Source: a virus. Taken from it: 64,000 nucleotides of DNA. The notes under the pieces are model-generated. The model worked only from the letters and a program-made list of their open reading frames with translations, searched no databases and had not been told where the DNA came from. The stretch covers positions 1 through 64,000 of the IMG/VR virus record IMGVR_UViG_3300025889_000092. One strand, given 5' to 3'. Shown here piece by piece: positions 860 to 25,040 of the stretch (positions within the stretch are counted from its first letter, which is position 1; every line of letters begins with the position of its first letter). The position numbers were made by a program, and so were the translations under genes.

Positions 860-1660
860 GCCCCTCACAGACAGAAACCGTGAGAGAAAAAGTGAAACAA
901 TTTGGCAGGCATGTAGTTAGTTACAGTGCGCAGATTGGCCTCTGACGTATAACTGACCCAGCCATCGCACGGATCGGCGCCGTGGTGATAGGTCAGTGTC
1001 CAGAGTTTGCGTACCTGCACCATAGACAGATACGCTGGACAAAAAATCTGACACGTAACTAACTACAACCGGACCAGTTGGATTGTATTTAGTTGCAACC
1101 TGACGAGGGTTACTAACATTTAGCGTCACTGGTTTGCCTTAGTTACAGACAAGATACCCGCTGACAAGTAGTTAAGAGTGCTTATCCAATGGCCTACTTA
1201 GTTCGGCTGCATTGTCCTAGCTACTTGTGCAAACTATTTGAGAACAACAGTAAGTTGATTTCGTACTAACGTCGCCGCGTTCCTACTACACTTACAGCTA
1301 TTCTGTTGTCAAGGTTCGTCAACCTAGAAGCCTTTACAGTTCCGGCGCTCGCGTTAGGTCACACCATGCCTGCCATTGCCTACACTTCAGGCGCTCCCTG
1401 GTGGGAGCCCCCTACCATCAGCGGCAGAGCGTGGGGACCTTTCGGCCGTCCCGGTTCCGTCTTCAGCTTTCGAGGTTCAATCGATCGTTATTTGATCGAT
1501 GAGCACAGCATCGCTCCGGATCGGTGCGAACGTCAACCCCTTCCAGCCGGTCTCTCAACTGGCACACAATGGCATGGGGCTCACCTAGTTACAAGAACGA
1601 AACGCACGCGCCCGCGCAAATACCACGCGGCAGGCCCGCAAGTCAAGCTTTGAAATAAAA
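860..1660. ncRNA. Probable large structured non-coding RNA
   Basis: About 800 bases have no credible gene but many perfect helices. The outer stem pairs 913-924 with 1055-1066 (12 of 12) and continues with 926-928/1052-1054 and 931-936/1045-1050. Inside it, 940-944/1001-1005, 952-958/991-997 and 968-972/980-984 are nested, followed by 1009-1013/1031-1035. Outside it: 1164-1171/1221-1228 enclosing 1187-1194/1205-1214; 1244-1250/1303-1309 enclosing 1250-1254/1291-1295 and 1268-1271/1278-1281; 1312-1316/1321-1325; 1368-1372/1388-1392; 1393-1398/1403-1408; 1480-1486/1494-1500; 1546-1551/1558-1563. The last helix has a G-U pair only if read on the plus strand, a weak hint of direction. Size, ornate fold and phage location recall the GOLLD and ROOL classes, but I recognise no consensus. 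Ends are approximate. Confidence 0.65.
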
Positions 1661-5036: not shown

Positions 5037-5112
5037 GCGCATCTAGCAATCTGGTGAATGCAGTCGACTCATAATCGACCTTAGGTGAGTTCAATTCTCG
5101 CGATGCGCACCA
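5037..5112 (+). tRNA. tRNA with CAU anticodon (Met or Ile2)
   Basis: A full cloverleaf: acceptor GCGCATC 5037-5043 with GATGCGC 5102-5108, anticodon stem GTCGA/TCGAC around the loop CTCATAA, a TTCAATT T-loop and an encoded CCA at 5110-5112. The CAU anticodon fits elongator tRNA-Met or the tRNA-Ile whose C34 is modified to lysidine; sequence alone does not decide. Confidence 0.9.
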
Positions 5113-5113
5113 C

Positions 5114-5197
5114 GCCTCTGTGACGGAATAGGTATACGTAACGCACTTAAAATGCGTCGCTCTTTAGGGCTTGCGAGTTCGAGTCTCGCCGGAGGCA
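5114..5197 (+). tRNA. tRNA-Leu (UAA)
   Basis: Acceptor GCCTCTG 5114-5120 pairs with CGGAGGC 5190-5196. The anticodon stem ACGCA/TGCGT surrounds the loop CTTAAAA, giving anticodon UAA. A long variable arm and GTTCGAGTC T-loop complete a class II tRNA of 84 bases. CCA is not encoded, unlike in its neighbour one base upstream. Confidence 0.92.
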
Positions 5198-5213
5198 CTT
5201 TTTATTAAAGACC

Positions 5214-23107: not shown

Positions 23108-23844
23108 CTCTTTCTAATTACAGATACGATTCGGGACCACATCGGATACAGAGCGGTCCTAATAGGGAAGCGTATCAAGTTGTAAGCTCTGGAATTGTAG
23201 ATCTCGGGGCGGATTACGGTGTAGTTGTTCCTGGCCCCCCTAATAGTGGTATATACAGCACCGACGCGTGGCGGGCAGTACCAGCCGCTGTTTCTGGTTA
23301 TTGGACTGATTACCAACACGTTGACTATCAACCAAGCGGTACTTTTTTAAGTGCTTACGAAGGTTATAGACCTCTTGGGTTCAGCACGATAGCCAATGCA
23401 AAAGTTCAGACTTCTTACGGACCCGAGTGGGGTGTAAGAGGCACGGGCAAGTACACGTATTTTGGTGGAACTGCGCCGGACAACCAGGCTTACAACCCAT
23501 ATAACACTCCGGAAGGAAATACAGCCGCTCAAGGGCACACGGGAGGTCAGTCTCTACAGCAGCGTTATGCCACGACGCTTTTAACAAATCCAACGAACGA
23601 CACTTCCGGAAGCAGAGCCTCGTGGGTTTACCATCCTCCTGTTTACTGTCAAACATTTACGGAGGTTTCAAGAAGTGAAACTCCTGGTCTGATGTCTACT
23701 GATTTGAGGTACGTGTATAGAGGTAGAGCAGGTAATTACGTCTCTAACTTTGCTTCTATCTACCATCAACTTCCGGAGGGTGTTCGTTCAATTGTGCGTA
23801 CCTACAGTCCTACAGTTAACTCAAGTAATCAAAAAACTAATTAA
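23095..23844 (+). CDS. Hypothetical structural protein upstream of major capsid
   Basis: 249 residues, rich in Tyr, Gly, Ser and Asn, with little charge and strand-like segments (VVSSGIVDLGADYGVVVP, SGIYSTDAWRAVPAAVSGYW). The only start in the frame after a stop is GTG 23095. Placement between scaffold and capsid genes and an all-beta composition suit a capsid decoration or completion protein. No family recognised. Confidence 0.6.
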   Translation: MVYTPLSNYRYDSGPHRIQSGPNREAYQVVSSGIVDLGADYGVVVPGPPNSGIYSTDAWRAVPAAVSGYWTDYQHVDYQPSGTFLSAYEGYRPLGFSTIANAKVQTSYGPEWGVRGTGKYTYFGGTAPDNQAYNPYNTPEGNTAAQGHTGGQSLQQRYATTLLTNPTNDTSGSRASWVYHPPVYCQTFTEVSRSETPGLMSTDLRYVYRGRAGNYVSNFASIYHQLPEGVRSIVRTYSPTVNSSNQKTN

Positions 23845-23924: not shown

Positions 23925-25040
23925 TTGTTCGTCGACAATGATTTTCCGAAGCTGCTCGGTGCGGAATTATACCGTCCCCATCCTGCGTACGTCGTAGAGA
24001 TGGCCGCTGAGCCGGTCGTTGTTCACGATTTCTCGAAACAACCCGGTCAGACCGTTCAGCTCGATCGTTACCGTTTCTGGGGCAATCCCGGCTCGAAAGA
24101 GTCTCGGGAGCGCACCGCTGAGCAGACCATTGGTACTGCTAATAGCCGGAACATCGTCAAGGACAAAGTGCTCGTGACTCTTCGCGAGTACACCGGTCCT
24201 GCCGATCCGAGTGACCCCACTCAGCCCAGCACCTTCAAGATTGCTCGCGAGACACTGATCACCGCGCAGCGTCTTCTGCTGGACACCGGCAACCTGACTG
24301 CTTTCCACCAGTCCATCGGTTCTCTGACCCTGCTCGACGACTATCGTCGTTGGCGCGATCGGGTGTTCATCAACGAACTCCTGAAAGCTGTCTCTAAAGG
24401 TCAAGCCTCCGATAGCCAAGGTGGTTACTACTACCCCGGCGATCTCGCCGTCGGTAGTCTGACCTACGCGAACGCTGAACAAGCTAAGTTCGACGTTAAG
24501 GACGACCTGCTGCGCGTGGTCAAGAGCCTGCGCAAGCGTAACGTTCCTACCTACCAGGACGGTTTCTATCGCTGCGTTTGCGATCCGACCTTCCTGATGC
24601 ACCTGCGTCAGAACAGCGACTTCCGTGAAGTTGCTCGTTATCCCGGCAACGGTCAGATCAACCCCCTCATGTCCGCGATGCAGCCCAACGCTGCCATCTA
24701 CATGGGTCAGGGCTTTGGTCAAGCCACCTTCGTGGCTGGCGAGCCGATCATGCCGACCGGTTTCGTGTTCGAGGGCGTTCGCTTCTTCGAATCCACGAAC
24801 ATGCCTTCTCAAAATGCGTCCGCGACCATCGGTGGTTCCGCGTCTTCTTACGAGACCGCCATCGGTATGTTCTTCGGACCCCAGTCTGTTGGTGTGGGTA
24901 TTGGCGGTAACAACGCCCAAGTCCTGCTCAACAACAATGACGACTTCAGCCGTTTCATCATGATGATTTGGAGCCTGTACGCAGGTTTCGAACTCCTGAA
25001 TGCTGATTTCGCCACCATCGCTTACTCCTTTAACGCCTGA
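23925..25040 (+). CDS. Major capsid protein, N4gp56/P22-like HK97 fold candidate
   Basis: 371 residues. It begins with TTG, the only start in the frame near the N-terminus, with GGGAG about 8 bases upstream. Segments VVVHDFSKQPGQTVQLDRY, TLITAQRLLLDTGN, EQAKFDVKDDLLRVVKSL, TFVAGEPIMPTGFVFEGVRF and SYETAIGMFFGPQSVGVGIG give the E-loop, spine helix and P-domain order of N4gp56-like coats. Biased, efficient codons also mark an abundant protein. It is followed by a further abundant gene with a perfect ribosome site. Confidence 0.78.
   Translation: MFVDNDFPKLLGAELYRPHPAYVVEMAAEPVVVHDFSKQPGQTVQLDRYRFWGNPGSKESRERTAEQTIGTANSRNIVKDKVLVTLREYTGPADPSDPTQPSTFKIARETLITAQRLLLDTGNLTAFHQSIGSLTLLDDYRRWRDRVFINELLKAVSKGQASDSQGGYYYPGDLAVGSLTYANAEQAKFDVKDDLLRVVKSLRKRNVPTYQDGFYRCVCDPTFLMHLRQNSDFREVARYPGNGQINPLMSAMQPNAAIYMGQGFGQATFVAGEPIMPTGFVFEGVRFFESTNMPSQNASATIGGSASSYETAIGMFFGPQSVGVGIGGNNAQVLLNNNDDFSRFIMMIWSLYAGFELLNADFATIAYSFNA

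Follow-up and report, generated by a model that had tools for sequence, protein, structure and literature searches.

Lambda nut and HK022 put are phage antitermination leaders of less than 100 nt. When placed before a long noncoding RNA, a boxA improves the processivity of RNA polymerase; PMC7862264 states this for rRNA and gives it as reported for CRISPR arrays, citing Stringer et al. 2020 as having reported boxA in CRISPR leaders. For the boxA of the cyanobacterial 16S-23S rRNA spacer, the complement of a published Synechococcus/Prochlorococcus primer reads GAACCTTGACAACTGCATAG (PMC9769826), and in another cyanobacterium the boxA is GAACCTTGAAAA and the D4 element CTGCATA (PMC8461337). Cyanobacteria natively lack Rho (PMC5100998). 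GOLLD (RF02032) and ROOL (RF03087) are large and ornate RNAs of phages, the former also of lakes. The feature studied here, located in IMG/VR record IMGVR_UViG_3300025889_000092, represents a cyanophage leader RNA of a new class, which carries rRNA-type boxA elements and is absent from Rfam 15. The record has 81,807 bases, and the window, by which we mean the whole stretch of DNA that was analysed, is a 64-kb part of it.

Like the rRNA spacer, the phage leader is a long structured noncoding transcript with a near-identical boxA and D4, but it carries no rRNA or tRNA, its two boxA copies lie around a new folded module, and a hairpin that starts at the D4 part is followed by a terminator-like switch and genes. 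What it shares with nut and put is an RNA signal that is found close to the beginning of a phage operon, ahead of the genes and on their strand, and that is proposed to alter the host RNA polymerase. In the phage leader, a conserved terminator-like hairpin lies between this signal and the genes. It differs from nut and put in its length of about 1 kb, its rRNA-type boxA, a host without Rho, and in that no boxB-N pair was identified, the partner homologues sought being NusB and NusG only. CRISPR leaders, in the account cited above, likewise have a host boxA upstream of a long noncoding transcript that is not rRNA, in their case a CRISPR array and not a phage leader.

The TerL of the record shares 53% identity with the TerL of S-EIV1, a phage of freshwater Synechococcus, with all other matches being far weaker; the virus is thus an S-EIV1-like freshwater cyanophage, in line with the cyanophage origin that the initial annotation of this DNA had assumed. 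A direct blastn search of annotated phages with the region gave no match. Most genes to the left of the leader and at the far end of the record are on the minus strand, and the far-end genes, named by eye, include DNA polymerase A and a primase/helicase-like protein, among others. The S-EIV1 record is circular, and if the present record is likewise a permuted circle, the minus-strand block would, judging from the strand layout, measure about 23 kb. The leader occupies the long gap between this block and a divergent plus-strand gene, and forms the noncoding start of the leftward gene block; this block contains replication genes and is probably early. In many relatives a different gene (MTELTIKTNNQ...) stands first after the leader. 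The conserved feature begins at a promoter-like block near 1837 and ends with a terminator-like hairpin at 756-740, giving a leader RNA of about 1,060 nt on the minus strand (Table 1); the interval of 860-1660 proposed earlier is indeed structured, but it covers only part of this span. The plus strand also holds two tRNA genes, Met and Leu-TAA, at 5037-5198; they lie 3 kb away from the leader, beyond the divergence point.

Table 1. Coordinates of the leader elements and flanking genes in the window.
Feature	Position	Strand	Remarks
First gene downstream of leader	392-709	minus	105 aa, family unknown
Terminator-like hairpin GAGGGATTCTTTCCCTC	740-756	minus	weak U-tract; ~30-45 nt before first start codon
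Antiterminator-like hairpin	748-786	minus	covarying upper stem, alignment A5
Terminator-like hairpin	861-887	minus	window only, not conserved in relatives
Multibranched 3' domain	899-1087	minus	alignment A2
Hairpin directly after boxA2 core	1241-1304	minus	last part of the boxA2 motif serves as 5' strand
boxA2 GAACCTTGACAACAGAATAG	1317-1298	minus	18/20 identical to picocyanobacterial rRNA-spacer boxA (PMC9769826)
Covarying module including both boxA copies	1298-1482	minus	alignment A3/A4, model R1
boxA1 (GAACCTCGAAAGCTGAAGAC)	1459-1478	minus	mostly paired with CUAGG just before boxA2
Promoter-like (or origin-like) block	1780-1920	minus	in relatives TTCTCGCC, ~25 nt, TATATATAAAAAAAAGGG
Divergent gene, opposite side	2557-2871	plus	phrog_507, function unknown

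Relatives were collected from IMG/VR using the gene at 392-709 as bait, which yielded 17 and then 26 related loci, and further loci were fetched with DNA patterns taken from conserved nodes. Since several loci belong to the same contig, this amounts to approximately 40 distinct related viral contigs that bear the region in the same place. About half of the matches to one pattern, CTG..TGCAGGTACGC, had hardly any further similarity, or none, and were discarded as chance matches (L168, L171, L172, L174, L175, L177 and L178). In the relatives, the leader RNA is on the same strand as, and directly upstream of, the same genes, and each record holds one copy.

The stretch 850-1670 folded better than all 20 dinucleotide shuffles on both strands, with z-scores of -2.70 (plus) and -3.21 (minus). 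The helices reported in the initial annotation are real, including the outer stem that was said to enclose two hairpins: perfect 13-bp arms (912-924/1055-1067) form the core of an 18-pair helix that is kept in 8 relatives, and both inner hairpins are conserved in relatives too. On the minus strand, the outer helix of this 3' domain pairs approximately 1069-1047 with 930-910, and encloses two hairpins, one at about 1043-1008 and a covarying one at 998-952. The A2 alignment of the domain (8 sequences) has 44 pairs with 93.2% of the cells paired, and 12 of these pairs changed on both sides, compared to 5.9 in shuffles, none of 500 of which reached 12. For the module between the boxA copies (A3, 21 sequences), 95.4% of the cells in 36 pairs were paired, and 16 pairs changed on both sides versus 6.0 in shuffles (0/500 reached 16); the A3 members were selected because they match the central node exactly, which makes the conservation of the node, though not that of its flanks, a consequence of the selection. 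The hairpin before the first gene (A5, 23 sequences) showed 53 double-change cells against 15 in shuffles, and a covariation score of 0.391 against 0.134. These shuffle statistics ignore the relatedness of the sequences. Slid controls, which retain kinship, left 20-58% of the cells paired over the three alignments, and 20-42% in A2 and A3 compared to the 93.2% and 95.4% of their true registers, a comparison in which the true registers are favoured because both structures were predicted on the same alignments.

To which strand the RNA belongs follows from the wobble pairs. In the minus-strand sense, the three alignments contain 160 G-U and 24 A-C pair cells, and the latter would be G-U if the plus strand were the RNA. 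The RNA therefore has the minus-strand sense and points towards the genes that come after it; this rules out the plus strand, which had been favoured before on account of a single G-U pair. The only open frame to speak for a protein-coding stretch, 115 codons at 1306-1653 on the plus strand, is broken by frame-shifting indels relative to the window in 19 of 20 relatives, which agrees with the earlier impression that the region is not gene-like. As the covariation also exceeds every shuffle and slid control, a coding or chance-folded stretch, to which we give next to no credence overall, is refuted for the aligned parts. The region is a structured noncoding RNA, with covariation above controls on one strand.

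Searching the 64-kb window with Rfam at the gathering threshold returned two tRNAs only, without any match to the GOLLD, ROOL, HEARO or OLE models, and a permissive search of 700-2400, with E-values up to 5, gave nothing relevant; none was found in five relatives either. Thus, of the proposal that this is an ornate noncoding RNA of the GOLLD or ROOL type or of a new class, the new class stands, given the covariation and the absence from Rfam 15, and the GOLLD or ROOL type finds no support. A divergent member of either family would fit the size, ornate folding and phage origin, but in view of these searches we regard it as very improbable. GOLLD is similar as a large ornate RNA of phages and lakes; the leader differs from it, besides the lack of an Rfam match, in its conserved position and an end that resembles an expression switch. 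A covariance model (R1) built from alignment A4 matched the window at 1298-1481 and recovered L045, L046, L003 and L004 with E-values of 3e-9 to 2e-4, none of which was in the model and all of which had been found via the neighbouring gene. S-EIV1 showed neither an R1 match nor, around the corresponding region, a strict boxA, and six Synechococcus and Prochlorococcus genomes gave no R1 match in a search that had no positive control.

The motif GAACCTTGACAA is found again in nearly all relatives on the sense strand, and hardly ever on the opposite one. Comparison with published sequences identified it as the boxA that serves antitermination in the 16S-23S rRNA spacer of cyanobacteria, and in 54 of the 81 genomic copies of the host motif that were examined, the 3' end of a 16S gene lies no more than 1.5 kb upstream. 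The best site in the window, boxA2, has 2 mismatches and is the only site with 3 or fewer in 64 kb, compared to 0 in 100 shuffles. Related DNA, 43 kb in total and mostly noncoding, held 9 sites with at most 4 mismatches on the sense strand and 0 on the antisense strand, against 0.05 in shuffles. By sequence match, then, this is an rRNA-type boxA, beyond chance and on the transcribed strand. A boxA that is nearly an exact copy of that of the host would also suit a decoy, i.e. an abundant early RNA that titrates NusB-S10 off the host rRNA genes and thereby shuts down host rRNA synthesis. We consider this unlikely, since the single copy, the fixed cis position and the downstream terminator-like hairpin suggest action in cis.

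Nearly all contigs found with the node pattern have one boxA approximately 56 nt before the node and another approximately 95 nt after it. In the predicted helix between boxA1 and CUAGG the variable base covaries (AU 14, GU 3, UA 3), and the window copy has one mismatch. The predicted unpaired fraction was 0.42-0.88 for boxA2 in the 21 sequences, versus 0.15-0.39 for boxA1 where it was measured. The hairpin that follows boxA2 is present in relatives with stem sequences that differ between members, and the domains 3' of boxA2 differ between otherwise close members in a mosaic-like manner.

At the other end of the leader, 41 sequences retain the promoter-like block, in which the stretch from TTCTCGCC to the A-run is nearly free of indels, and the window carries TTATGG instead of TATATA in this block. 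Judging from these sequences, we infer a promoter region, with a proposed transcript start near 1805; a simple sigma-70 scan gave no promoter at the conserved block. The position at the divergence point of two gene blocks and the conserved AT-rich block would also fit a DNA replication origin region, in which the transcript primes replication and the RNA structure serves priming, but this would leave the boxA copies and the hairpin switch at the gene junction unexplained, and we find it quite improbable.

In 14 of the 18 relatives tested, the junction with the first gene contains the element GAGGGAUUC-N-CCCUC and, after it, a run rich in U, and terminator-like matches at the junction numbered 16 in sense and 6 in antisense orientation, against 1.2 in shuffles. 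The U-tract of the last hairpin is absent in some relatives. The hairpin at 748-786 uses the GAGGGA strand of this terminator-like hairpin, so that the two compete, and from their sequences the hairpins at 786-740 look like a terminator/antiterminator pair. One relative (L193:1137-1228) has a second junction element, GAGGGATTC/CCCTC, approximately 940 nt further downstream, thus the element may serve several genes.

On balance, the explanation that we favour is that the RNA is a 5' leader of rRNA-type antitermination, in which host Nus factors carry RNA polymerase through. Conserved structure, strand and boxA sequence are well supported, as are synteny and the terminator-like and competing hairpins. 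The steps beyond these, namely binding of Nus factors and read-through, together with their order and the early timing, are proposed as follows. The rRNA-type boxA elements would emerge during transcription and be bound by the host NusB-S10 (NusE) complex, which would stay with the polymerase and make it processive. The domain between the boxA copies would fold such that boxA1 is hidden by its CUAGG pairing and boxA2 is left exposed. The modified polymerase would then copy the large folded 3' domain, pass the terminator-like hairpin or hairpins and enter the gene block, with the competing hairpins making the last of these switchable. Neither a NusB nor a NusG homologue was found in the record, hence host factors would be used. 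In favour of such a leader we count the near-host boxA2, the fixed two-boxA layout, the predicted open boxA2 and paired boxA1, the co-directional synteny, the competing junction hairpins and the single copy per record. Against it we count the weak or missing U-tracts, S-EIV1 without an R1 match, the elaborate 3' domain, which boxA alone does not explain, and the lack of Rho in the host, which takes away the classical benefit of boxA; the gain would probably be passage of intrinsic terminators and pauses, or correct RNA folding, rather than protection from Rho. These findings suggest that the phage borrows the host rRNA transcription machinery to express its own genes, and that cyanophages with Rho-less hosts use the host rRNA boxA system for gene expression. 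The new conserved phage RNA class combines strong covariation with a concrete molecular hypothesis.

It is possible, though in our judgement doubtful, that the RNA stands alone as an ornate ROOL-like RNA that ends at the 756-740 hairpin, uses boxA for full transcription and folding, and functions in trans as a scaffold, cage or means of sequestration. Its ornate covarying domains exceed the needs of a simple antiterminator, there is a terminator-like hairpin at its end, and a boxA adjoins the 5' end of some ROOL copies (see below). However, it always lies directly upstream of, and co-directional with, the same genes, the competing hairpins resemble a read-through switch, and the domains after boxA2 vary between members, unlike one conserved trans-acting fold. 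The two readings, stand-alone RNA and antitermination leader, are not mutually exclusive.

Host-type boxA patterns matched at least 120 viral contigs, and 69 of the 80 sites examined lie outside a long open frame. In one contig (L268:7503-8093), a ROOL RNA has its start within the boxA motif, and bases downstream of the core are able to pair with the 3' end of this ROOL, an arrangement that, by analogy, resembles an rRNA processing stem. Among 20 Rfam-confirmed ROOL copies with readable 5' ends (ROOL-pattern loci and L268), a boxA-like core was located between -70 and +25 nt of the model start in 7, some of them near-duplicates (L268, L347, L336, L330, L331, L333 and L341), with an expected 0.04 per copy; many other ROOL copies have a TATAAT-like sequence at the 5' end instead. 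The initial annotation's alternative of a ROOL analogue therefore retains some merit through this boxA core, although membership does not, in the absence of a model match. Both RNAs are ornate phage RNAs in which, for the ROOL subset, a boxA at the 5' edge is followed by a closing helix, but this helix closes a 60-nt hairpin in the leader and the whole RNA in L268, and the leader precedes the early gene block whereas ROOL lies in a tRNA island. Comparing ROOL DNA with phage and plasmid records gave matches of approximately 50 nt upstream only, or none, and a search of 58 genomes around a Lachnospiraceae genome found no ROOL. No GOLLD was found in 40 boxA-bearing viral contigs, a search that had no positive control, and the literature searched contained no paper naming both ROOL RNA and boxA. 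Three phage contigs showed weak partial OLE RNA matches just above the gathering score (L333:10084-10167, L337:2050-2137 and L341:507-590), inside large tRNA arrays that also hold ROOL.

The boxA at some ROOL 5' ends is a new clue to the purpose and making of giant phage RNAs. We tentatively propose, without leaning on it, that phages commonly treat giant RNAs as honorary rRNA, whereby a host-type boxA and a closing helix would let the host rRNA complex make and fold them. If true, this would cover the new cyanophage class, the ROOL subset and the leaders of T7-like cyanophages, and tie ROOL-like RNAs to a host pathway. Three cultured T7-like cyanophages have a boxA in noncoding DNA ahead of a block of small genes: S-TIP37 (L350, on WH8109), at 459 with 2 mismatches and the first gene at 761; S-CBP3 (L349, on CB0101), at 330 with 3 mismatches and the first annotated gene at 412; and KBS-P-1A (L351:2586, on WH7803), with 3 mismatches between genes ending at 23483 and starting at 24080. 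With boxA copies before first genes of cultured phages, the use of the host boxA system for cyanophage gene expression is testable now. The first 4 kb of Syn5 and P-SSP7 contained no host-type boxA.

Other boxA-bearing sequences were noted along the way. In a group of marine viral contigs (L217, L224, L225, L226, L236, L238, L246, L252, L255, L257, L259, L266, L273, L291 and others), boxA is followed by a long conserved noncoding stretch that is probably structured, and this group likely represents one more undescribed family of phage RNAs, related to the leaders of the T7-like phages. A third group (L214, L219, L234, L256, L270, L281, L285 and L286), for which no annotated phage relatives were found, shows GCGAACCTTGAAAACCGAATAG, then a GC-rich hairpin and then an open reading frame approximately 150-200 nt after boxA. 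Finally, several bacterial genomes (L049, L063, L066, L072, L104, L105 and L108) carry an rRNA-type boxA away from a 16S end, and these are perhaps CRISPR leaders.
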